DNA of 64,000 bases, taken from NCBI RefSeq assembly GCF_000400935.1, contig NC_021280.1, positions 930,001 through 994,000 on the forward strand, written 5' to 3'. Positions 4,236 through 61,316 of the stretch are shown here, piece by piece. The notes beneath the pieces were generated by a model that worked only from the letters and a program-made list of their open reading frames with translations, ran no database searches and was not told where the DNA came from. The stretch comes from Spiroplasma chrysopicola DF-1. GTDB taxonomy: Bacteria; Bacillota_I; Bacilli_A; Mycoplasmatales; Mycoplasmataceae. The first letter of the stretch is position 1, and each line of letters opens with the position of its first letter. Position numbers and translations under genes: made by a program.

Positions 4236-6395
4236 CTAATTGGTTGTTCAATGTTCATATTGATAAATTTTTGTAATAACACTATTAACATCATTATCAT
4301 AAAAGACGAATGGAATGACTTGCCCATTTGTTGCACTATAATTATATAAATATATTGCTTTTTCCAGCGTATTAACACTTGAACTTAATTTCGCATTGGC
4401 TTTTACAGCAGCTAAGGCTAAGTCTTGTGATGGATAATAAATAAATTTTCCACCTTGATTTGGATCTTCAATACGATAAACATTATAACGACCATCAGAA
4501 ATTGTTAAATCTCATGATCTTTTAACATTTGGATCTCATGAACCAATTTCTTTTTTATGAACAAATTTTGAAGTTAATTGAATTTTATTAGTTAACTGAC
4601 GAATTGCATCTTCCGCACTACTACTAGCAATTTCTTGATTACCAAAAGCATCATAAGCAATAAATTGTTTACGAAGGGTTTTATTATTGTTAATAATTTG
4701 TTTTTCTTTTGCTTCTTCTAATGTTGGTGCTAACATTTTTCCTTGACGATCAGAAATATCGGGATCTGGTGAATATGAGTACATTAGTTTACTTTGAAAG
4801 TTACCTTCTAAATATAGAAATTTATCTAATTGTTCTTTTGTGGCTAAAAAGTCATTACGTAATGGATAAACAGTTTTTCCTTCAACTGTTAGAGGATTCT
4901 CTAATAATTTAGCTTTAATTTCAACTCAGTGTAAATAACTTTCAATTAAGGATTGACTATAGCCTTTACTATAATTAATATCATAGGCTTTATCTTTATA
5001 AATAAAACCTTTTGATCCTTCTCCATCAAAGACAACATTTTTAATATAATTACCATCTTTAATGTCATCATAAGTTACTTGGCGATTATCATTAACCCCA
5101 AAGTTTGTAATAACACTATTGAAATATTTATCATATCATTCATTATAAAATTTATTTTTTTCCTCTGTTGTAATATTAGCCGGCGAATAGACCCCTTGTT
5201 TTTCTGGGGTTACATCTAAGAATTGATCATCATGCTTATCTGGACTTGAATATAATTTAATTTTTCCCGTTGATTGGTCGGCATAACTATAATCGTTTAA
5301 ATTTGGAGCTGGAGTTTTACCCCCACCACCGCTTCAGTTTGTTGGAACAAGGTTTATTTTTATTTTTACTTCTTGACCATTTTTGTAACCTTCTAAAGTT
5401 GTTGTTTTATATCTTCAACCAAATCCAGGAGTTCCTTCGGTTCCTTCACCTCATTTGGCATTTTTAAACCCATTGATTACTTCTTGTCCACTATTATACT
5501 TAACATTACGTGGTTCAAAAGTAAATGCACTTCCAGCCCAATAATCAGTTGCTCCACCCATTGAGTTACCATTTTTATCAAAATATTGAACCGTAATTCG
5601 GTTACTTGCTGAGGGAGCAATTGACAATTTATAATGAGTTTCTGACTCGGTAATTTGGTTATAATAATCCCCATTCCAATCCTTTTGGAAATCTTTTTTT
5701 AATAAATCATAAATTAATTTACTATCCCCTTTTTCAATAATCGGCTTTTGTAAGGGGCTATGAGTTAAGGATTCATTAATATTAGCATAATACCCTTCAT
5801 CCATTAAAGATATTAAGGCATTAATGTCTTTATCATTAAAAACATTATAATATTGATTTTGACAAATATAATATAACGACTTATTAATCTTCATATTATA
5901 CTTTTCATTAATTTTTGCCTCTTCGGGGGTATCAAATCAGTAAAAACCATCATAACTATATTGGGCTTTAACATGGCCTTTGTTAACATAAGTATCAAGG
6001 GCCTCTTGGCGACTATATGCGACATTCCCAAAAGCATCCCGATATAGTTGTTTAAAATTATTTAAATCAACATCATAGATTTTTGTTTCATCTAATGTCA
6101 TATGTTCATAATTTTTAATAATTTTATTAGGATTAGAAGAAGTTAACACAGAAGTTACTTTATTGTTTTGTAGCAAATATTCATTTAGGGCTTCATCTGA
6201 ATAAAAAGTTTGCCCATCAAATTCACTGTACTTAACTTGTCCTCCATAAATACTATTTTTAAAAATATCTTCTCGTAAAATTTCAGGATCAATGATTCGT
6301 TGACTATTATTCTCGTTTAGAGCATAATATGTCATTGTTGTCATTGATGGGGTTACTGTTATTAAAGAAGAAGCTAAAGCTATTAATCGTAACAT
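4236..6395 (-). CDS. Large secreted or surface-anchored repeat protein (adhesin-like), second of pair
   Basis: A 719-residue protein whose ATG follows directly on the TAA of the upstream gene, in the same frame, with GGAAAGG about 11 nt before it. The N-terminus (residues 1 to about 22) is a hydrophobic signal-type segment without a lipobox. The body repeats a loose 30-40 residue unit in which an aromatic/Asp-Gly stretch is followed by an S/T-x-x-E-A-x-x-x-L helix, for example FDGQTFYSDEALNEYL, DAFGNVAYSRQEALDTY and DAFGNQEIASSSAEDAI. The same unit fills the upstream gene. Layout suggests spiroplasma adhesin-type proteins; the exact family is not certain. No C-terminal membrane anchor is visible. 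Confidence 0.8.
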
Positions 6396-9194
6396 TTAAT
6401 TCACAACCTTTCCATTTGCCTCTTTTGCACTTACTTGGACTGTATTTAATTCAACTCAGCGCATAAAATCATTTTCTGAAAAGAATTCATGTTTACCAAA
6501 AGCAAAGGTTTTGGCATTTGCATCAAAGTTTAAAGTTTGATAATTAACGTGATTTAAAACGTAATTTCATGCTTGCATTGCGGACATAAAATATTTTTTA
6601 TCACCAAAATAAGTTAATTCATAAACATCAAAGTTTAAACCAATATAGTTTGATAAACTATCATAATTTGATGTGGTAATTAAATCAGAGTTAATAACTG
6701 CTTTACTATCAATAATTTCATTATTAGTTACAAAATCTTGTATTTCATTTAGTGAATCAGCTAGAATACTTTTTCCAGTTTTTGTTGTATATTGATATGA
6801 AACATTAAAATTAGCCTGAGCAACATTTTCTTTTAAACTTGCTAATGCTTCTTGCTGGGTTTCAAAATAATGTCCAAAACCATCTAAGTAAAATTCTTTT
6901 TTATTTGGAACAAAATATTCATCAAACATTTCTTTAACAAATTTATTTTTTTCTTCACTTAATTTTGTATCATAATCAGCTTGGGTAATACAATCATCAT
7001 CATTAGAAGTGCTTCCACAAATATTAGCATCACTAATTTGTGAAGGCAAAGTATAGGGAATATCTTGAGCCATAATACTCATCATTAATTTTTTGTTTGG
7101 TAGATAGCGCTCTGGGTGTAAATAAATTGCTTCAATTAAATCACTTTTAGCATTTTCTTTTGATAAATAATAATGATCATTAAATTCATATAGTTTTTGA
7201 TCTTTTGCTTCTAGATCACTTGGTAACATGTATTTTAAAGCTGATGCTGATAATTCCGTAATTTTAGTTTGAGGCTGTGGTGTTTTTAAATCAATTCCTA
7301 ATACTGGAATTCGGAAGGTTGGGACCATATAATATAATGAATGTTCGTTATCAATTTTAAATTCTAGTGTTTTAATCGAAATAAAACTAAGTGATTTTGA
7401 AATTTCTCAGGCCGCTGCAAAACCTTTTAGAAAAGCTCCCACGAAACGAGGTTCAATCTTTTTATTTTTTTTATCTTTAATATGCATTTTGTCATTAATT
7501 TCATTTGCTTTTTCATTTAAACCTTGTTGAACTTTTTGATTTGTTTTTTGACGTTCTTCTTGAACTTTACTATCACTAGTATTATTATCTGTATAATTTT
7601 TTTTCATACTATCTTTTAAAGCACCCACACCATTGATCATCCCAACAATATTATCAATTGCACTCTCAAGTTTCTGTAAACCATTTAAAACTGCTAACTT
7701 ATCACTACTACTTTCAAAAAAGTCACTTTCATTTAGAAACATATTATATATATCATTGAATTCAATTTCTTTATTTAATAAAAAATCAGCTCCTCGGTTT
7801 TTATCCAAATCATCATTTTCAAATAAAAAAGTCATTGTTTCACGATTATTATTTAAAATTTCAACAATAATTTCTTTAAATAATTGTTCTAATTGTTTAG
7901 CACCGTTTTCTACTGATGATGCATAAACTTTTTGGTAGGTAATCATTCTTTTCATGGCGACTAGTAATTTATGAAAATCAGTAAAAGTTGGATCAGTAAT
8001 ATCTCCTAAACCAATTGTTGAATCCTGAAGTAATTGATCAGATATATTTAAGGTTTTTCTTAATTCGATAAATTTTTTTATTAATTTATTGTTTAACATT
8101 TTTTGATCTGCCAATCAAATAAGAAAGTCTAATAAATTTTCTTTATTTCAATTATTATAATTTTCAACATCTTTTTCATATAAATTAGTAGCTATATTAT
8201 TAAATGTGGAAGTTAAAGTCATAAATAACAGAGCTGATGGCGTATAAGAACTTACCTCTTCAAATTTCGCAGATGTTAATTTTTGACTAGTTTCAACATA
8301 TTTTGGGCCAACAAAATAGCCAGTATTATTTGCAGCTAAATCATGGGAAATCCAATACGAATTTTTATCCGGATTAACTACTTCTTTAACATATTTATTA
8401 ACTGTATAGTCATCAATATTTGCCATTACTGTTTTATATTCTGAATAATTATAGTCTGAAAAATACTGCCCTTGATATTCAAAACCATTTTTAATCCCAT
8501 TCCGTAATCAAGATTTTATTTCTTGCTCTGTTTGACAAATTGCCCCTTGAATATAACACTCTGTTTTACTGTTATCAGTATTTTCTAATTTTTTCTTAAT
8601 TGAATTTTCATATAATTCTCTTGCTTCATATTCATTGTAGCGAAGTTCTCCTTCAATGTTATAAACTTTTTGATAATTTTGAAAAGTACTTAAGGCATCA
8701 GTTTTATTCAAATAAGCGCTTCCATCATTACCACGATATACTGTTACAGGTTGTTCATATGAGGCAGAAATTACATCCCGTGATAATTCACCACTACTAT
8801 TAATAGTATAATTACCCGGGTTTCTAATTGTTTTAACAGTATTAACTGGGAATTTTTGCATTAAATATTTGTTTAAGGTTTCTTTTGTTCCAAAAGTTTG
8901 ACCATCAAACAAATAATTATTTGTATTATAACCAAGTGAACGAGTAGTTGCAGCAGTACGCGCATAATTAGCAACACTTTCTTGCGAACTAAAATATTTA
9001 TCATCAAATTTATAATAAATTCCTTCTTCTTGGGTTCTTGCTGCTAAAATAGCTCCCGTTGTAATTCCTGATCCCCCAATTAAAACTATTGCTGATATAA
9101 AACTAATAAATCTTTTTGATTTTCAAAGCGGTTTTTGACCAGACTTAAAAATACGCTCAATAACTTCGCGAGCACTTAAATTCTTACTTTTCAT
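6396..9194 (-). CDS. Large membrane-anchored repeat protein (adhesin-like), first of pair
   Basis: A 932-residue protein. It has a short basic cytoplasmic N-terminus of about 28 residues, one membrane helix (about 29-50), and a long outside domain. There is no lipobox and no C-terminal anchor, so it is probably type II membrane-bound. The outside domain carries the same aromatic-DG...F.S..EA...L unit as the next gene (FDGQTFGTKETLNKYL, LDGFGHYFETQQEALASL). Residues of about 400-550 are more helical and charged. Many UGA-Trp codons. Its first 96 codons were duplicated to 10643-10933. Binding partner unknown. Confidence 0.8.
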
Positions 9195-9250
9195 TTTTTA
9201 AACCTCTAATTTCTAGTTTTGTATGATTAAGATAAAAGTCAAATTAAATA

Positions 9251-10327
9251 CTATTCATAAACAATCCCAAAAGCTAATTGCTCATCAATTGTTGTTGTCG
9301 CAGAAATATCTTTATATTTTAAAGTTGTTTTAACATTAAGTATTAATAGCCCATCTTCGTAATATTTTGAACCATATATATGTTTTAAATTGTCAGATTG
9401 CTCAATGTCTGATTGTAAAAAAGCTGAATTTAAAGAAATATCTAAATCAATATCATCAAAAATAGTTGGCATATATTTTAATAGAAAATTAATTTGATTA
9501 CGACTAAAAATATCTTTTTTTAGATTATTTAATATTTGTTTTTTATAGTTTTCAAAAAAGATACTATTATCATGTATTTTGTTAATTAAGTCTTTACTTG
9601 GAAAATCCTCTATTGAAAACCCAAATGTCATTGAAAAACTTGGCATCAATAAAAACTTACGATATTGGTTACTATTTGCAACTATTGCACTAGTATCATT
9701 TAACATTTTAGTAAGATAATCTAATCTTTTTTGGTTGTCAGTAATAAAAGAATTAATTTTTAATGAGATCTGATTTTGTGTTTGACTACCAAAAATTTTA
9801 TATTGGCCAAAAGTATTGCCCTTATAAAAAGATACTACACCATTTGTGACTGGAGGATTAACTGGGTTAGCTTCTTGAATTTGTTTTATTGATATATCTT
9901 TTAAATCATTTAAATTATAAGCAACATCATAATTAAACTGATAATTTTTATGATTTAAAATGGCTTCACCCAAATCATCAGCTAAATTTATATCTGCAAT
10001 TTGAGCTGATAAACTAAAATCTGGATATAGCTCTAATAAATTTGGAATATCTTTAATCAATTGTTTCATCACTAAATCAGTAATTAATTTGTTAAAAAAA
10101 GACCAATCGTAAGTTATATTTCTAGCAAGAAAATTTTCAATATTTTCTTCTGATTGATCATAATCAATAATTCAATCATCATCAAATACTATTTGATGTT
10201 GTAAAGACTTTTTAATTTTCTCATGAATAGTTTCTTGACTAACTGGCTTTGCTCCACAACCAATAACTGGTGTAACACTTGTTCCAACTAACGAAATAAC
10301 CCCTAACAATGATAATAACTTTTTCAT
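9251..10327 (-). CDS. Prolipoprotein, copy 1 of a duplicated pair
   Basis: A 358-residue lipoprotein with a signal peptide ending in a VIGC lipobox (Cys24), so it is lipid-anchored on the outer face of the membrane. AAAGGA lies 12 nt before the ATG. The mature part is rich in Asn, Asp and Ile. It is paralogous to 10990-12069: signal peptide and the last 80 or so residues are identical, while the middle differs at many positions. I do not recognise the domain. The long upstream region shared with the second copy presumably holds its promoter. Confidence 0.88.
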
Positions 10328-10642
10328 TAATTTAATATTTCCTTTCTTTATATTTAAACTTTCTTTTATTATTCTTACAAAACACTATTTTCTTAATATT
10401 TTAATCAATATTAAGATCTAAAATTAATTTTTATTTTAATACATCTTGATACTTTGATACTCTTGGTAATTTTTATTACTAAATTTATATATTATTTGAA
10501 AATTTAATAATAACTCTTAGAATAAATTTCATGATGACATAAAATATGTCATTTTTATCTTAACATATTTTAAATAATAATGTATTTAATTCTATATATT
10601 TTTATTTAAAATAAAAAATATTTTGAAAAAATTTACTAAAAA
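10328..10642. other. Non-coding region upstream of lipoprotein 1
   Basis: About 315 nt of very AT-rich sequence with no gene, repeated at 12070-12376. It holds a possible minus-strand promoter (TTAAGAT-type -10 near 10555-10565) and an inverted repeat at 10534-10552, giving a predicted 5' leader of about 200 nt. Confidence 0.6.
10534..10552. promoter_or_regulatory. Inverted repeat in the lipoprotein leader
   Basis: ATGACATAAAATATGTCAT, arms of 8 nt. The copy at 12276-12294 has one changed base in the right arm (TATATCAT). The GACATA/TATGTC half-sites are also found in the dhaK leader. Confidence 0.4.
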
Positions 10643-10933
10643 TTAATACAAATAATTATTTGTATTATAACCAAGTGAACGAGTATTAGCAGCACTACGC
10701 ACATAATTAGCAACACTTTCTTGCGAACTAAAATATCTATCATCGAATTTATAATAAATTTCTTGACCATGATTTCTAGTTGCCAAAATAGCACCTGTTG
10801 TAATCCCTGATCCCCCAATTAAAACTATTGCTGATATAAAACTAATAAATCTTTTTGATTTTCAAAGCGGTTTTTGACCAGACTTAAAAATACGCTCAAT
10901 AATCTCTCGAGCATTTAAATTCTTACTTTTCAT
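10643..10933 (-). pseudogene. Truncated copy of the large surface protein gene
   Basis: An ATG at 10933 opens a 96-codon frame matching the N-terminus of the gene at 6396-9194, including the membrane helix (MKSKNL..., ISAIVLIGGSG). After the shared segment NTNNYL the copy hits the duplication junction and a TAA at 10643-10645. It may still make a short membrane peptide, but it lacks the outside domain. About ten residues differ from the parent, so the duplication is not brand new. Confidence 0.85.
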
Positions 10934-12376
10934 TTTTTAAACCTCTATTTTCTAGTTTTTTATGATTAAGATAAAAATCAAATTAAATACTATTCATAAA
11001 CAATCCCAAAAGCTAATTGCTCATCAATTGTTGTTGTCGCAGAAATATCTTTATATTTTAAAGTTGTTTTAACATTAAGTATTAATAGCCCATCTTCGTA
11101 ATATTTTGAACCATATATATGTTTTAAATTGTCAGATTGCTCAATGTCTGATTGTAAAAAAGCTGAATTTAAAGAAATATCTAAATCAATATCATCAAAA
11201 ATAGTTGGCATATATTTTAATAGAAAATTAATTTGATTACTATTTAAAGCATCTTTTTTAATATTACTTAATATTAATTTTTTATAGTTTTCAAAAAGAC
11301 TATTATCATTATATATAGTTTTAATTAAATCATGATTTGGAAAATCATTTGATGAAAATCCTATTCTCATTGTTCCAGAAGGCATTAACAGTAGTTTATG
11401 ATATGAAGCCTGATTTGCTACTATTGCACTAGTACCATTTAACATTTTAGTAAGATAATTTAATCTTTTTTGATTATCAGCAATAAATGAATTAATTCTT
11501 AATGAGATTTGATTTTGTGATTCACTCCCAAAAATCTTATATTGCCCAAAAGTTGATCCATCATAATTAGTTAAAAACCCATTTATAATTGGTGGATTTG
11601 AGGGATTCGCTTCTTGAATTTGCTTTACCGATATATCTTTTAAATCATCTAAATTATATCCAACATCATAACTAAAATTATAATTTTCATTCTTAAAAAT
11701 AGAATTTCTTAAATCATCAATAATATTAATTCTATTTGCAATTTGAGCTGATAAACTAAAATTTGGATATAGTTCTAATAAATTTGGAATATCTGTTACT
11801 AATTGTTTCATCACCAAATCAGTAATTAATTTATTTAAAAATGATCATTCAAAATTAGATGCTGAAGAAATAAAACTTTTAATATTTTTGTCTGATTGAC
11901 TATAATCAATAATTCAATCATCATCAAATACTATTTGATGTTGTAAAGACTTTTTAATTTTGTCATGAATCGTTTCTTGACTAACTGGCTTTGCTCCACA
12001 ACCAATAACTGGTGTAACACTTGTTCCAACTAACGAAATAACCCCTAACAATGATAATAACTTTTTCATTAATTTAATATTTCCTTTCTTTATATTTAAA
12101 CTTTCTTTTATTATTCTTACAAAACACTATTTTCTTAATATTTTAATTAATATTAAGATCTAAAATTAATTTTCATTTTAATACATCTTGATACTTTGAT
12201 ACTCTTGGGGTTTTTTATTACTAAATTTATATATTATTTTAAAATTTAATAATAACTTCTAGCATAAATTTCATGATGACATAAAATATATCATTTTTAT
12301 CTTAACATATTTTAAATAATAATGTATTTAATTCTATATATTTTTATTTAAAATAAAAAATATTTTGAAAAAATTT
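10648..12376. repeat. Tandem duplication, copy 2
   Basis: Second copy of the 8909-10634 unit. The shared edge is ACAAATAATT on the left and TTTTGAAAAAATTT on the right. Similarity is patchy: the stretch 10990-11239 looks identical to 9251-9500, while about 11240-11760 has many differences. Confidence 0.92.
10990..12069 (-). CDS. Prolipoprotein, copy 2 of a duplicated pair
   Basis: A 359-residue lipoprotein with the same signal peptide and VIGC lipobox (Cys24) as 9251-10327. The C-terminal 80 or so residues (from NQINFLLKYM onward) are identical to copy 1, but the middle region has many replacements. That fits partial gene conversion or diversifying selection on one exposed part. Function unknown. 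It sits downstream of its own copy of the long leader region. Confidence 0.88.
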
Positions 12377-12498
12377 GCCAAGCATTAATATTAAGTAAAC
12401 ATCTTTAAATTATTACTTAGATATTGTATGTGTTGAATAATTATTCTAATTTAAATGAAAAAAATAGTTTTAAAAACTATTTTCTTTTCTAAAATATT
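12070..12498. other. Non-coding region upstream of lipoprotein 2
   Basis: Positions 12070-12376 repeat the leader region of lipoprotein 1, including a slightly damaged inverted repeat at 12276-12294. From 12377 on the sequence is unique and ends in the terminator at 12461-12483. No gene seen. Confidence 0.6.
12461..12483 (-). terminator. Terminator after lipoprotein 3
   Basis: AAAATAGTTTT and AAAACTATTTT form a hairpin just after the stop at 12499, followed by T's on the minus strand. Confidence 0.7.
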
Positions 12499-13059
12499 TT
12501 ATGCTTTACTAGAAGTGACTACTTCTGCATACATATAATAACCTGCTCAATAAAATTCAACATCTTGTTCTGCCTTATCTTTTATTGTAAAACTTGAATT
12601 AGTATATTGAACAGTTTTAACTAGATAACTTAAATTACTATTTTCATCATAAAATTTTTTCCCAACTTGGTCTCTGATTGCTGCAAATGCATCATTATTT
12701 TTAAAATCATTTTTAGAAACAATATCATTTTTATCTAAAGAAAAGAATGGTTCATTAGTTTGACTATTTTTACTACCAAAAATACTAATACCTTCAATAG
12801 CATTACTAGAAATGGTGTTTGCTACATCCATAACATAACTTGCAGCTTGTCTCATATTATATTTCGCATTAGTTTTTGTGTTTATAAACTGAACACCTTC
12901 AGATTCATTAACATACATTAAATCTAATGCTGCACTATTTAATTTATCAACTGCTGTTTGAACAGCTGCGTCATTTTTATTGTTGTTACATGCTACTAGA
13001 GTTGTTGATACTGAAGCAGTTAAACTAACAGCTCCTAAAATTGCTAAAATTTTTTTCAT
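12499..13059 (-). CDS. Prolipoprotein with spiralin-type signal peptide
   Basis: A 186-residue lipoprotein. The signal peptide MKKILAILGAVSLT... ends in LVAC (Cys24), followed by an Asn-rich linker, the usual layout of abundant spiroplasma surface lipoproteins such as spiralin. The mature part has one UGA-Trp near its end and no recognised domain. It is shorter than spiralin (about 240 residues) and I see no convincing similarity beyond the signal peptide, so I do not call it spiralin. It has its own terminator and a roughly 400-nt gene-free region upstream. Confidence 0.82.
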
Positions 13060-13609: not shown

Positions 13610-14856
13610 AAAATAGACACATAAAAAGTTACTTATGTGTCATAATTTTATTGAAAGGTATTCTTTTATTATGGGAACAAAATGATTTACAAAAAACGAA
13701 AAACTTAATATTTTAAAATATTACAAAGAAAATGGTTGAGCAAAAACAATTAAAAAATTTGAAATTTCAACACCAACTTTATCTCGTTGAAAAAAGGCAG
13801 TTAAAATTAGTGGAGAAAAAGCGTTAGAACCAGGAAATGGTCTACAATCTAAAGGAATTCGCCGACCAGGGCGTCCAAAAAATCTTAATTTTGAATTAAT
13901 GACAAAAAAAGAATTAATTGAGTATATTGAAATGATTCAAGATGTAAAAAAGTCCTTGCCCAAATCGAAAAAGAAGAAATTTCAAACGATTTGGTCCTTA
14001 AAGAAAAAATACAAGATTAAATATTTATGCAAAATTTTAAATGTTTCTAGAGCTGGTTATTATAAATGATTTAATGCTGGAATGAAACTTTTTAATAAAT
14101 GGAATAATACAATTGCAAAAAAAGTTAAAACGTTATTTCTAACTTTTAAGAAAATTTATGGATATAATATGTTAACACTAATTATTAATAAACTATATAA
14201 TTGAAATTTAAAACCTCATATTGTCTATAGATATATGAAAAATATGAATTTAAAATCAATTATTAGAATAAAAAAATTAATTATAAATTATCTTCTGGTA
14301 ACAAAAGACATGAAAATATCATGAATCAAGATTTTTCAACCACAGATATTAATCAAAAAATAGGAACAGACATAACATATTTATTAACAAGCGACAAAAC
14401 CTATTTTTTATCAATAGTAAAAGACTTTCATACTAATGAAATTTTGGACTACCAAATCAGTAATAATTTAGAAAAAGAATTTGTCTTTAAAAACATAATT
14501 AATTCTTGAGTAAAAGCTGGAAAGCCATCAACTTGAGTTCTACAATCAGATCAAGGTTTTCATTATACAAATTCTGATTATGAAAAATTATGCAATTATC
14601 TTGGAATTACGATTTCAATGTCCAGACGTGGAAACTCTTATGATAATGCCCATACAGAATCATGATTTGGTACTATGAAAACTGAATTTTTATATCATAT
14701 AAAAAGAAAAAAACGAACAGCCAAATGAATTATTGAAAATCTACCTAAATATATCTATTTTTACAATAATTTTAGACCACAAGCCAAATTAAAAGGAATG
14801 AGTCCTGTTCAATACAGAAAATCATCCCTTCAAGTAACTTTTTAATTGTCTATTTT
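13610..14856 (+). mobile_element. IS3-family insertion sequence, about 1.25 kb
   Basis: Terminal inverted repeats of 25 bp lie at 13610-13634 and 14832-14856 (AAAATAGACA..., 23 of 25 positions matching). They enclose one transposase coding region. No clear target-site duplication is visible. Confidence 0.88.
13671..14845 (+). CDS. IS3-family transposase (frameshift inside catalytic part)
   Basis: The first frame (13671-14363, 230 codons) holds an N-terminal helix-turn-helix (residues 1-60), a linker, and the OrfB-type HTH segment ending near VSRAGYYKW. The DDE catalytic domain continues in the -1 frame to the TAA at 14845 and keeps the acidic residues (GTDITYL, LQSDQG, HTESWFG). The switch coincides with seven A's at 14270-14276, placed exactly as A_AAA_AAA relative to the codons. 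A programmed -1 slip would give about 391 residues, the normal IS3 OrfAB length. A one-base deletion in a formerly intact gene is equally possible, because IS3 frameshifts usually lie nearer the OrfA/OrfB border. Confidence 0.82.
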
Positions 14857-53965: not shown

Positions 53966-55471
53966 TTAGTTTTTAGTACTTAAAATACCTCGAACTGCTC
54001 TGACTAAACCCTTAGTTTTTGACCTCAGAATCGGTACCGTACCTTGTTTGGGTTCATAACGCTGAACAACATCATATTCATTTTTTACTCAAATATTTTG
54101 GAAAAAGTAATTTTTTCTAGCTTTAAGTTCATCATTATAGTCATTTGTTATAATTTCAATTGGATCTCATCCATTTACTTTGGCCATCCGCATACTTAGC
54201 ATATTTGAAAACGTTAATTTACTATATGCCTTAGCGCCGTAGGATTTTAACGACTTAACATTATGTGAAATTTGTGCTTCCGTTTGTGATCCAATATAGT
54301 ATTCTTTACTATAATTGCTAATCCCCTCTTTATTACCTTTCACATATTTTAAAAGCTCTTTAATTTGAGGTTTTTTATGATTTAAAAAATCAAATTTCTT
54401 TTGATAAGTTGGAGTTAACAAATCATGGATATATTTAATTAAGTTTTGTACATCACCATTTTTAATAAAAGCCGATAAATCATAATAAATTGCTTTCTTT
54501 TGCTTTTCTAGTGAATTTAAATATCCTTCTTTTTTTCTGTTAAATCGCCGAAAATTGAAACATTTATGCAAATACTTTTTTAAATGAAATTCATCTAAAA
54601 CAATATCACCATGAAGTTGCGATGCCGTTGTTTTAATTCATGTCGCCCCATCTCCAAGAATAACAACTTTTTTATCTTTTAACTCATAGTTTTCATTTAA
54701 AAACTTATACAATTTTTGATGATAATTATTTAAATTCTGTTCTCAATTATCTTTTAAAATCATAAACAGCTTTTTATTTTTTAATACTCTACGATTATTA
54801 ATTGACTTTTCTTTATCAAAACCGGTATGGGCATACGCCATTCGGATTGTACTTTTACTAATTTCTTTCTTTCGTGATTTTTTGTTGTAATTAAAAATAT
54901 TGGTGTACGTATCATCAACTCCTACATACAAATATTTTCCTTTAAACTTAATTTTTTTCTTATCAAAATTAGCGCAAAAATTATTATACTCTTGCAAATT
55001 AATACTTCGATTAATGTTTGAAATTGTCATTAATGAAATTTCTGAATACTTATATTTGTCTAAAATATCCCGGTAGCGCTTACCACTATCTAATTCTTTC
55101 AATATTTTAACATATAAGTCAAAGTGTAGTCGCTGATAAGGTTTACGGCCAATTTCAACGTCTAACAAAAAAACATATTTATGTTTATACAATTTTCGAT
55201 CATAGTAACGGAATCTTGTTCTTTCATAAGTAACTTGCCCTCACTCAGTAATTAAAGTAGCGGGACGTTTACCATAAAGAATATAACCTTTATTGTTATT
55301 TGAATATTTTTGTCGCAAACGTAAATCCAATTCTTCATAGTGTTCTTGAATAGCTTTTCTAGTTTTATTTTTAACTTCTTCTTCAATATCTTCAAACATT
55401 TTAATTTGTTTAAAAATATTTTGGGTATAGTCATTTTGATACAAAGAAAAATTAATACTATTTTGGTACAT
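53966..55471 (-). CDS. ISLre2-type transposase (UPF0236 family), apparently intact
   Basis: 501 residues. The N-terminal region (EEVKNKTRKAIQEHYEELD), the GYILYGKRPATLIT...GQVTYERTRFRYYD segment, the YVGVDDTYTN and VILGDGATWIK acidic motifs, and the His-rich LDEFHLKKYLHK segment match the UPF0236/ISLre2 transposases common in Firmicutes and spiroplasmas. Three UGA-Trp codons are read through and no frame break is seen. I could not find clear terminal repeats, so the element ends are not defined. Confidence 0.85.
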
Positions 55472-55660
55472 AATATTTTTTACCCCTATTCTGATCTGAT
55501 TGAATCCTAATATGTTATTTTCTTTTGATGATACTTTTTAATTAATAGTTTAATATGTTTTAAAATTAAGATTATGTTATGATTATATCATAAAAAACCC
55601 TGATTTTATTGAGTATTCAGGATTACAAAATATTTATATGAATAGAGAGGAATATGATTG
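55472..55660. other. Intergenic region between transposase and alpha-CTD-like gene
   Basis: About 190 nt, AT-rich, containing the likely right end of the ISLre2 element and a promoter for the gene at 55661. A weak inverted repeat CCTGA / TCAGG lies near 55602-55621. Confidence 0.35.
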
Positions 55661-56089
55661 ATGAAACATCAATATTTTAGTAATGAACTGATTGATTTAT
55701 TTAATTCCCCAGCTCAAACTTTAGAATTACCAGCCCGAGTTCTTAATGTTCTTAAAACTAAATTTAAACACAATTCTATTTCTTTATTTGATTTTAATAC
55801 AATCCAAGTAAGACACTTAATTCAATGTTTATATATTTTTACTAATGATGTTCGTAATGTTGGAAATAAAACTAAATTAGAACTTATTAAAATTTTGGAA
55901 CAGCAAAATTTAAGAATTTTTACGTATCAAGAAATTTTGGAAATTTATAATTATGAATATACAAATAACAAATGATTTTTATTCAACAATAAAGAAGATA
56001 TCAAATATTTTGAGCCATATAAAAACTGGCGACAACTGATTTTCTCTCCTAAAACACTAGAAAAAATAGGCCAAAATAAAAAAAATTAA
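55661..56089 (+). CDS. Small protein with an RNA polymerase alpha-CTD-like domain
   Basis: A 142-residue protein. Residues about 20-85 (LELPARVLNVLK ... DVRNVGNKTKLELIKILEQ) follow the pattern of the alpha C-terminal domain and related helix-hairpin-helix folds: a leading helix, then RN-x-G-x-K-x-x-x-E-I-x-x-x-L. The remaining sequence is aromatic and unrelated to RpoA. A TTG (55658) or ATG (55661) start both fit AGAGAGG. It stands alone, next to a transposase and opposite the adhesin-like gene; the terminator is shared with that gene. It may modulate transcription of a mobile element. Confidence 0.6.
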
Positions 56090-56116
56090 GTAGATTAAAC
56101 ATTACTTAATTTTTTT
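56079..56116. terminator. Bidirectional terminator between 56089 and the adhesin-like gene
   Basis: AAAAAAATTAAGTA and TACTTAATTTTTTT pair perfectly around a 10-base loop. Both convergent stop codons lie inside the stem. Confidence 0.88.
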
Positions 56117-58963
56117 ACGTAGGCGAATAATAAACCATGTCATAAATATTCCCAAACCTAGAATTGGCAATAAAATTATTGGTAATAACCATGATAAATA
56201 TTTATGTTGGGAATTAACATCAGGCTTATTTGGGTCTGGTGGAGTTGGAGGCTCTGGCGGAACAATTTCAGACTCAGGATCATTTATCAATTTATATTCT
56301 GAATAACCAGTTGTTTTATCACTAGTTGAAGAAGAATAAACAAATAATTTTAATGTTTTAACTTCATTTTGTGAACTTAAAAAATCATTTAAAATACTGT
56401 CAGATAAATCTCCTGGAGTATTTTCATGAGTTTCCGGATCAGCATTAGGAATTTGATTTGCTGAAATTCCGTAGTCTTGGTTTAAGAAAATATCATTATA
56501 CCCATAACTTATCAAATAATTTTCAACATCTTTGTAAATCCAATTTCTTAAATCTTCCGCATTAAATTCAGAAAAATCATATTTATAGTCTTTAAATTTA
56601 ATTTTACTTAAATCATAACTAGTTTCCGGATTATAAGTTGATGAATTTCTTACTTGCAAAGTTGCATTTCCAATTAAAATTGTGGATGTAACCAATGTAT
56701 TAACTGATAAATTTAAATATTGTGCTTCACTTTGATTATTTAACAACGGTTCTAAGCCTGATGCATCAACTGTAATATCTTTACCATCAGGAGTTTTGAT
56801 TTGATAATCAATCCCAAGAACAGCTTTATTACTAAATTTAGCAATATATTTTTTAACTTTATCTACAATTGCATCGCGAATTGGATTAACCTCTTCTTCA
56901 TTTAATTTTAAAACATCTATATTCCCACTAATATCTTGGTAATTTTCAGGAGTTGGATTTGGTGGAATTTTTTGTGCAATTATATCACTTGTATAATCTT
57001 TTCAATAAGCTGCAACTTGTTCATAATTCAATTGCACAATCCCGGTAGAATCTAAATTTTTATAAGTTGCTAAGTAGTTTTTTAAATGAACACCATGAAT
57101 TGTTGTTCAAAATTTGACTGCTTGATTATTTTCAACAATATCTAAAAAACGGGGATATTGATTTTGATATTCAGGGCCAATAATAGCATATTTTTGGGCC
57201 GTAGTTTTGTCAGACATTTCAACTGTATAATGCCAAATTCCACTGTCTGATCAATACTGTGTTGCTGTATTTGAAGTTATTTTTTGGTTTCTTTGCCTAT
57301 CATCTGGATTTTCAAAAGACTTAAATGATTTTTCATCAATTCCTTCCCGATAAACATTTTTTATTGCCTCACTTGAAAAAGTCTGGTTTACCCCTTTTCC
57401 AACAACCGAACCTTCGGCAATAAAACCTAAATCATATTCCTCTGGATTCTTTTCTGGGTTTATAACTTCGCCATTTTTATTTAAAGGGTCTAACGGAAAA
57501 GGCACAGTTGATTTTTGTTTAATTCAAATAATTTGTGTTTTTGTCCCGGTATCCGGATTGATTTCTTTATCATATTTAGGATTAGGTTGACCATTTTCCA
57601 AATTCGGCGTAATTAGTTCTTTTTGTTTTGGATTGTGTTCTGGATCCCAAGCATGCCATTTTAGCTTTAAATTTGGCACTAATGTTTCAATAACAATATC
57701 AATAGTATACGTAATATCATATTTGCTATCTTTATGACGAATTACAATAGAATAATCATTTTTATTTTCTCCTTTAATACGATTATCTTCTAGTGTAGCA
57801 ATAAATTTATTATCTAAAACATCGATTTTAACGCCATTTATTTCAACTCATTCGGGATTAATTGTGCCATCTTCTGCTTGCTCTAAAGCATCAAATTCTA
57901 ATCCAACTGTTGTGTGATAACGTCATTTACCCCAATAATTCTTTGAAGTATCAGGTGGGACAAGTTGCTCGGGGTCATCTGTTACCATTCCTTTTGTTGA
58001 ATCATCTGGATTAACTACTTTACCAGGTAAAATATGCAATCTTTCATTTAACTCATTACTTCAATAGTCTTTTGATAACGTAATCTTGATTGGGGTTTCA
58101 AAGGTTCAGACTTCTTGTTGATTGGTAGTAGGATTTTTAAATTTAATCGTTGTTGTAGCTTTTCGTGTCAAATCACTAAATGCAAACGGTTGAATATACT
58201 GTTTTCAATTATTATATTCATCACCCAATACATTTGAAATTTTAGCATTTAATAATGATGTCAAATCATTATTTTTCCCGGTTGGATCATGAATATTACG
58301 TTGATCAATTAAACTTCCTGAATAATTCGAAACAAAGGTAATTTCATTATTTAAAGCTGTTTTTAAATTATTTTTAATTGTGGTTAAATTTTGATTAGAA
58401 TTTAAAGTTATTTTAGAAACTTGTAGTTTACTAGTAGTATCTGTTCACTGTGAATTTCCACCCTGGTACATCCAACAATTTACTTTAAAATTAAAATATA
58501 ATTTATTATTTAATCATGTCATATCAACTCATGCTTTATTTGATGCCTGATTCTGTTTTCCCTTTTGTGATCAAGTAAAAAAAGTATGATTACTATTATT
58601 TGTTGATAAATTTACTGTAACAGGATCATTATAGTTTTGATTACGACCAAACCCTGATGAACCAGATAAGGCGGTAAACTGAAAAGTGACCGATTTATAA
58701 TATTTTAAAAAAGTGGTCTTATCTTTGGCATAATCTAAATAATTAAAAATATACTCCTTATTATCTTCATCTTGCAAAGTTTGTCATCATGAATTTGTTC
58801 CTTTGTATACTTCTAGATTTACATTTGGATTAACATTTATATTCGGATAAAAAGGTGCCCCACGTAAACTACTATATAAACTGATTAAATTATTTGTTGA
58901 TAAGGGCAAGATTGGTGTTGTTAATAAAGTAGTTGTTGTTAAAATTGATAATAATATTTTCAA
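56102..58963 (-). CDS. Large surface protein with C-terminal membrane anchor (adhesin-like, plasmid-type)
   Basis: 953 residues from a TTG start after GGGGGAG. A signal peptide (about 1-22, no lipobox), an outside domain of about 880 residues rich in Asn, Asp and Trp, a proline-rich stalk (PPEPPTPPDPNKPDV) and one C-terminal helix (about 923-947) with a basic tail. The layout matches the adhesion-related proteins of S. citri plasmids, also encoded next to mobilisation genes, but I see no clear internal repeats and cannot confirm homology. It follows the relaxase gene by 3 nt, so it travels in the same transcript as plasmid-type genes. Confidence 0.78.
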
Positions 58964-58966
58964 AAT

Positions 58967-60286
58967 TTACTCCCCCTTTGCTTTCATATCATAACTATTA
59001 ACGTTATGAATTTCATTCTGTAATTGTCTAAAATTATTCATGGCATTTTGCATTGCACCACCAAATTGCTGAGATAATTCATAAGTCAATTTTGATAATG
59101 AATTATATTTTCAATTAAAAGGTTTGTTCATTCCCTCATATAACCCTGGTGGATATTTTGATTTTCTTTTTCGCTTTGGTTTGAAATACAAAGTATTTAA
59201 GAAGGCGTTAGCTAGTCTCCGATACAATCCATCGCCATAAATTTCTTTTCAATATCATTTAGTTGCTTTATCGAATGCTGTTTTATTATTTTCACTGTCC
59301 TTAATTAATTGATCACGGTGAGTTTGCAAACTTATTACATAGTCATCAAACTGAAATTTAAGATCATCATTATTTTGAATAACATAATCAACAATATTGC
59401 GAAGTTGTAGTTGTTTTTCGGGAGCAGCTTTATATAGCTCTCCATATTTAAAATGCTTACCATTTTTATGCGCTGGTAAATCTGTTAAATAAGTTTTAAC
59501 TAAATTAGTTAATTCATCGGAATTATTTTTAATATCATTATGAACTTGCATCCGAAATTTTGGCGTTATTTCATCTCGTTTTGTTCGCAATTCTTTAAAA
59601 AATTCTCTCCTGTTTTCAACGTATTGTTGAGTCTGAAAGCGAAAGTATTCATTAGCTTCTTCTGATATTTTACCCATTTCACGATACTTAAATTCTTTAC
59701 CCCCTTTTGCCAATGATTTTGGCTCTTTTTCCATAAAACCAATATGTGCATGAATATTTTCAGTATTATCATGAACAACAAATCAATAGTCTAAATTGTT
59801 TGGATCTAACCCAGCTTTACGAAAATACTTTTTAATATTAGAATCAATTACTTCAGCAATTTGTTCACGATTATGCAAATTGTATTCTTTTTCAAAATCA
59901 TTTGAAAAACTTAATACACAATCCCACAGTAATTGATTTTCCTCTAAATTTTTTATTTTGCTATTTATTTCATCTGCTTCTGTTGAAGTTAGTTTTTTAC
60001 CATTAGCATAAATCCCGGTATCTTTTTTATCTTCATTTTTAGCAATTTCATTAATTTTTTTAGTATAGTCTTTTGCTGATTCAGCATTTTTTAAGTTTTT
60101 TAGCTTATCATTATTTAAACAGCATTTACATAACGCTTCCGACCTAGTGATATATTTTCAGTAATCCCCACTTTTGTAATATTTTCGTTTGGACTGAAAT
60201 TTCTCACTGTTTTTTGAAAACCGAATTATCTTTCAAATTACCGGGACACTTTGATCAGCATGACTATAACTACTATGCTTATCCAA
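58967..60286 (-). CDS. Plasmid-type relaxase (MobL/Mob family)
   Basis: 439 residues. Three His residues in the pattern H-x6-H-x-H (His172, His179, His181, ending HAHIGFMEKEPK) form the metal site of relaxases that nick DNA at a transfer origin. The N-terminal half contains SSYSHADQS and the C-terminal half is helical. The TTG start at 60286 overlaps the primase gene by 8 nt with GAGG upstream. Such proteins are encoded on spiroplasma plasmids and integrative elements. No transfer origin is recognised nearby. Confidence 0.78.
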
Positions 60287-61316
60287 GTTCAAATTCCGCC
60301 TCATTTTTGTATAATTCTTTTAATAAATCAAAATTTTTACTTTGGCAAATTTCATCGGCATCTTTATACTGACTATTATTGTCAATAGTTTTTATAGTTA
60401 TTCCTGTATTTACCAATAAGCTATTTATTTTCTCACTAGCTAATCTTCCAGGCTTATCATTATCTAGAAAAATATTAACTTTATCAAAACGTTTTGATAA
60501 TAACGAAATCTGATTTTTTGATAAATTAGTTCCCATTAATGCAACTGCTGGAATTGCGTTTTGGGCCAATGAAATAGCATCCATATAACCTTCAACAATC
60601 GTAACTTCTTTTTGAAATTCCGGAATTTTATTTAAATTAAATAGCACATTACTTTTAATAAAGACATCTGTTTCTGCTGAATTTAAGTATTTTATTTGAC
60701 TTGTATTTGATAAATCTCTGCCAGAAAAACCAACAACTTGATTGTTTTCATTTTTAATCGGAATCATAACACGGTCTTTAAAAACACTGCACAATTCATC
60801 TTTATAGTTTAATCTAGCTAAATTAGCTTTAATTAATTCTTCTTGACTATATCCTTTTTTTAGTAAAAAGTTGATTAGATCATCACTATTTGAATATCCT
60901 AAATCAAATTCATCAATTATTTGTTCAGAATATCCCCTATTATGTAAATATTCTTTTGCTGTTGTGCCAATTATTGTATTTAGACTATTTTTAAAATACA
61001 ACATGGTCAAATTGTTCAATTGATATAATTTATCTTTTTCACTTTGAGGGACTACTTTTGGTTGTGAAATTGTTTGTTGCTGATCTAAATTGTATTTAGC
61101 TGAAATTAATTGCTTAGCTTCATTAATTGAAAGATTTTCTATTTTAGCAACAAAATATTCAACTGATCCACCAACATTGCAAACAAAACAACGTCAAACT
61201 TGTTTTTCTACCGATACTGATAAACTAGGATGCGAATCACTATGAAAAGGACAAATTGCAACATAATTTCGCCCTCTTTTAGATAATTTTAAATAATCGC
61301 GAAATACCTCTAACAT
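60279..61316 (-). CDS. DnaG-type primase, mobile-element form
   Basis: 345 residues. The CHC2 zinc finger (Cys22, His25, Cys43, Cys46) is followed by the primase core with a TOPRIM segment (VEGYMDAISLAQ, IFLDNDKPG). It lacks the C-terminal helicase-binding domain of chromosomal DnaG (about 600 residues), as in plasmid and phage primases. It starts the primase-relaxase-adhesin transcript; AAAGG precedes ATG 61316. Confidence 0.88.

Follow-up and report, generated by a model that had tools for sequence, protein, structure and literature searches.

Two lipoprotein genes lie head to tail on the chromosome of Spiroplasma chrysopicola DF-1, and they agree closely at both ends and diverge in between. 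This raises the question of whether the pair is a device for varying the cell surface or the product of a more ordinary history. We examined the locus within a 64,000-nucleotide stretch of DNA (the window), taken from a chromosome that is a single contig of 1,123,322 bp (G000), and read the genes with code 4 (TGA = Trp). The genome of a sister species (G013; 1,107,344 bp) served as the yardstick, with one genome per species being compared. The reading that we favor, at a probability of roughly 85%, is that a tandem duplication would have followed the split of the two species, that the copies then diverged at a normal pace and that one conversion of about 263 bp came later.

A tandem duplication with a clean junction

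All genes of the locus are encoded on the minus strand, in the order 186-aa lipoprotein, lipoprotein 2, 96-aa remnant, lipoprotein 1, 932-aa protein and 719-aa protein. Their coordinates, and those of the two duplicated units, are as follows:

12499-13059, minus strand: 186-aa lipoprotein gene, an open frame under code 4
10648..12389, minus strand: copy 2 of the duplicated unit, 1742 bp, first in transcription order (upstream region, lipoprotein 2 and the truncated start of the membrane-protein gene)
10990..12069, minus strand: lipoprotein 2 gene, 359 aa, with lipobox VIGC and a match to the lipoprotein signal model NF038029, code 4
10643..10933, minus strand: remnant of the 932-aa gene in copy 2, 96 aa, retaining the membrane-anchor start, its stop made at the duplication junction
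8909..10647, minus strand: copy 1 of the duplicated unit, 1739 bp, running on into the intact 932-aa gene
9251..10327, minus strand: lipoprotein 1 gene, 358 aa, with lipobox VIGC and a match to NF038029, code 4
6396..9194, minus strand: intact gene of the 932-aa protein, with an N-terminal hydrophobic segment, the ancestral downstream partner of the lipoprotein
4236..6395, minus strand: 719-aa protein gene, with an N-terminal hydrophobic segment, the third cassette gene

A first-pass annotation had described a tandem duplication extending from 8909 to 12376. The head-to-tail arrangement was confirmed, with units at 8909-10647 and 10648-12389. The offset between copies is 1739 in the 3' part and 1742 in the 5' part, a difference caused by one additional codon in copy 2, and the repeat lies far above chance expectation. 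In each unit, about 320 nt of upstream sequence precede a lipoprotein gene, and the 932-aa gene contributes its first ~95 codons. This last gene is whole downstream of copy 1 only; the version in copy 2 is cut at the junction, and its remnant frame ends immediately past the join. No bases are left over at the join, which lies exactly between 10648 and 10647, and the shared sequence there amounts to at most 1 bp; the duplication therefore probably arose by illegitimate recombination or by replication slippage.

An assembly artefact at 10634-10648 would be a trivial explanation for such an arrangement, and the sequence was judged from the assembly. However, a false duplication should yield identical copies, whereas about 190 sites distinguish these two, among them an inserted in-frame codon, and both reading frames are open; we regard an artefact as having a negligible chance of being correct.

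A single copy in the sister species

In the sister genome a single lipoprotein gene occupies the syntenic position, in the same gene order as the window. Between the two genomes the lipoprotein is 62% identical and the 932-aa protein 85%, and the 719-aa gene is also present. For the middle segment of the lipoprotein gene, the two copies group together and the approximately unbiased (AU) test rejects a grouping of either copy with the sister (p<0.005); the duplication, or else the last conversion of the middle, therefore postdates the species split. For the 5' end of the downstream gene, the tree leaves the branching order unsettled by the same test, and at several sites the remnant in copy 2 has the state of the sister and not that of the full 932-aa gene. 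An older duplication, or an imported allele, may account for the start of this gene, which is the one loose end.

Related cassettes were found in three other genomes (G009, G010 and G004) and pieces of one in G008. G010 has three cassette loci: in one the 932-aa gene is interrupted, and in another the lipoprotein is reduced to roughly its final 87 residues, so duplication and decay of the cassette happened more than once.

Several other features were observed in the two genomes. The sister has a second, divergent lipoprotein/membrane-protein cassette (G013:C1:885000-893000), of which a search of the window's genome found no counterpart. Within the window, an IS3-like element in two frames (13635-14845, with an rve integrase domain) lies between the 186-aa lipoprotein and P-type ATPase genes, and its gene is absent at the corresponding place in the sister. 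A mobile-element-like block at 53966-61316 encodes a UPF0236 protein and a 953-aa protein with a signal and a membrane anchor at its C terminus, along with a DnaG-type primase and a relaxase that weakly matches the MobA type.

Two identical ends with apparently different causes

Overall, the copies are 88.6% identical over 1743 aligned columns, and identity ranges from 100% down to ~63% in a 100-nt block within the lipoprotein. This bears out the uneven pattern noted in the first-pass annotation and rules out uniform divergence. The identical ends it had reported were likewise found, as the two lipoproteins match over their last ~83 codons and in the signal peptide. Identity is complete over 176 bp (10230-10405, equal to 11972-12147) and over the following 263-bp tract:

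9239..9501, minus strand: gene-conversion tract in copy 1, 263 bp
10978..11240, minus strand: gene-conversion tract in copy 2, identical to 9239-9501

To place these stretches on a common scale, we divided the copy-copy distance in each segment by the mean distance of the copies to the sister. The upstream region gave a ratio of 0.55 and codons 1-57 one of 0.66; the middle, divided into three parts, gave 0.68, 0.62 and 0.64. The intergenic stretch together with the beginning of the next gene gave 0.79, and the intervals of all six segments overlap. In the C-terminal 251 nt (9251-9501) the ratio was 0, although each copy departs from the sister at 32.7% of sites there; by arithmetic from the ratios, ~60 copy-copy differences would be expected, and 0 were observed. 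The copies agree over an unbroken run of up to 84 polymorphic sites, compared with a maximum of 30 in 100,000 permutations.

Synonymous sites give the same picture. Over the 53 synonymous sites of the tract dS is 0 between the copies, compared with 0.73 to the sister and 0.29-0.61 in the middle, an identity beyond what purifying selection on the protein could produce. Gene conversion between paralogues accounts for a tract that lacks synonymous differences while the outgroup and the flanks diverge. The earlier suggestion of gene conversion is thus supported for the 3' end and is not needed for the signal-peptide end, which is near-identical not only between the copies but also to the sister (3% different); slow evolution suffices there, precisely because the sister is near-identical as well. 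On this comparison the two identical ends appear to have different causes, the 3' end being converted and the signal-peptide end slow-evolving.

The same ratios bear on an alternative order of events, in which a recent, near-identical duplication was followed by replacement of one middle with a divergent imported allele, the identical tail being the unreplaced remainder. Import would fit the rise of dS in the middle together with amino-acid divergence, and species divergence there exceeds that of neighboring genes, which suggests that divergent alleles circulate. A recent duplication, however, predicts ratios near zero outside the import, whereas the values in the middle (0.62-0.68) are close to those of the upstream region and of the start of the next gene. 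We therefore consider import of the middle unlikely, and favor duplication followed by ordinary divergence and a conversion confined to the 3' end.

Divergence of the mature lipoprotein

The first-pass annotation had also proposed diversifying selection on an exposed middle domain. The substitution rates do not support this proposal: in the middle, dS between the copies is raised as well (0.46, with dN 0.21 and a pairwise dN/dS of 0.44). Moreover, the middle varies at least as much between species as between copies, and the C-terminal part is also fast between species (dN 0.36 to the sister). For these reasons there is probably no special exposed middle domain; the mature lipoprotein beyond about codon 57 evolves fast throughout, with one end reset.

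A bolder reading is that the two genes form a two-copy surface-variation system, in which ongoing recombination creates mosaics under diversifying selection, as in the adhesin and VlhA systems of mycoplasmas. It draws on the lipoprotein signals, on homologous recombination between the copies and on the presence of RecA, as well as on codons ~221-290, which are the most variable part here and again between two dispersed paralogues in G010. These paralogues, however, lack an identical tail, and at the window locus the middle has a dN/dS below 1 (0.44, pairwise) and there is one tract only. A whole-genome search found zero partial donor copies elsewhere, and each copy has its own upstream element rather than sharing a single expression site. 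Taken together, a variation system of this kind is very improbable, and the post-split duplication with a single later conversion remains our preferred account.

Upstream elements and expression

Both copies carry the same short element in the upstream region:

10436..10459, minus strand: 24-nt upstream element TATCAAAGTATCAAGATGTATTAA of copy 1, ~110 nt upstream of the lipoprotein
12178..12201, minus strand: 24-nt upstream element TATCAAAGTATCAAGATGTATTAA of copy 2, the same element as in copy 1

The pattern TATCAAAnTATCAA...TGTAYYAA is conserved upstream of the lipoprotein in several species, in surroundings that are not conserved. Across 14 genomes, a relaxed form of the 24-nt element is confined to the region upstream of this lipoprotein cassette, and control matches numbered zero. 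The element is a possible operator of an unnamed regulator, and its retention in both copies suggests that both lipoprotein genes are probably transcribed and co-regulated. Matches to sigma-70 promoters were at chance level only, and Rfam gave no match.

A 17-bp dyad, TGACATAAAATATGTCA, was also seen upstream of both copies (10535-10551 and 12277-12293, with one mismatch in copy 2). It occurs in the sister and is absent from more distant relatives, and all further sites in the genome carry 2 mismatches. The sole other genomic TATCAAANTATCAA site (G000:C1:1058828) falls within the upstream part of another lipoprotein-like frame or close to it, probably by chance.

An uncharacterized lipoprotein and its partners

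Both duplicated proteins match the NF038029 signal model over residues 1-24 (34 bits, cut-off 24), with the cysteine at position 24. Neither matches the MOLPALP lipoprotein family (TIGR04547), to which the neighboring 186-aa lipoprotein is similar in its signal part alone and below the cut-off. Similarity to spiralin (NF038030) is confined to the signal peptide, at ~15 bits against a cut-off of 140 bits. Beyond the signal peptide, Pfam and PHROGs contain no family for the duplicated lipoproteins, and NCBIfam offers the signal-peptide model only. A profile search for relatives of solved structure returned antibody matches only, at chance level, which we rejected, and AlphaFold run on the two window sequences gave an unusable model (mean pLDDT 31).

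The lipoprotein most likely serves as a lipid-anchored surface partner of the 932-aa protein, which comes next in the cassettes of related genomes. In the 932-aa protein, comparison with the sister shows a hypervariable block at codons ~250-600, where dN reaches 0.37 and dS 1.4, between conserved ends. By eye, the 932-aa and 719-aa proteins (4236-9194) seem to share a short repeated motif, approximately Y-x-F-D-G-x-x-F-x-S-x-x-x-A-L, and in a genome search one segment of the 719-aa gene was weakly matched by the 932-aa protein. It is conceivable, if decidedly speculative, that the lipoprotein and the variable block of the 932-aa protein interact and co-diversify; duplication would then have freed one lipoprotein, and conversion between the twins would hold the C-terminal part in common and let the rest vary.

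Proposed history and known systems

We propose that, after the split from the sister species, an illegitimate tandem duplication with 0-1 bp of microhomology doubled a segment that runs from the upstream region through the lipoprotein gene to about codon 95 of the gene that follows. The paralogues would then have diverged at the normal pace of their family, slowly in the upstream region and signal peptide and fast in the mature protein. A conversion of ~263 bp, comprising the last ~83 codons and 12 bp downstream, would have run much later from one copy to the other, in either direction. Conversion presumably depends on RecA, for which the window's genome has a full-length match, unlike one Spiroplasma strain in which recA is truncated (PMC8208695). 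Since both genes look intact and have the same upstream element, the cell probably makes two related lipoproteins, together with a short membrane-anchored peptide. The duplication and its junction, the sister's single copy, the conversion tract and the open frames are seen directly, whereas RecA dependence, expression and surface exposure are inferred.

Mycoplasmas are well known for segmental recombination between related surface genes (PMC4534519, PMC2169797). The locus resembles MgPa (mgpB/mgpC) of Mycoplasma genitalium and VlhA-type systems (PMC4534519, PMC2169797) in showing segmental homologous recombination between related surface-protein sequences. Those systems, however, combine an expression site with many partial or silent donors, whereas here there are two complete genes with their own upstream regions and no donors were found. 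Beyond signal-peptide matches, these are the only two copies genome-wide, both complete and with the same element; in the one genome of this species we saw no silent donors and no phase switch. A further parallel is provided by tandem lipoprotein paralogues of Mollicutes that undergo partial conversion (concerted evolution), with which the locus shares the head-to-tail arrangement, intact signals, a tract bounded by divergence, and RecA. It differs from them in having only two copies, one tract and one truncated start of the downstream gene, and in matching no Pfam family and, in NCBIfam, the signal-peptide model only.

By far the best explanation is thus a clear but ordinary duplication and gene conversion in an uncharacterized family, which is not evidence of a special surface-variation system. 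The locus, from an insect-associated genus without cell walls, shows in a worked example how slow evolution and gene conversion can be told apart with an outgroup. It also defines an uncharacterized three-gene cassette (lipoprotein, 932-aa protein and 719-aa protein) that has its own conserved upstream element and has been repeatedly duplicated and broken within Spiroplasma.
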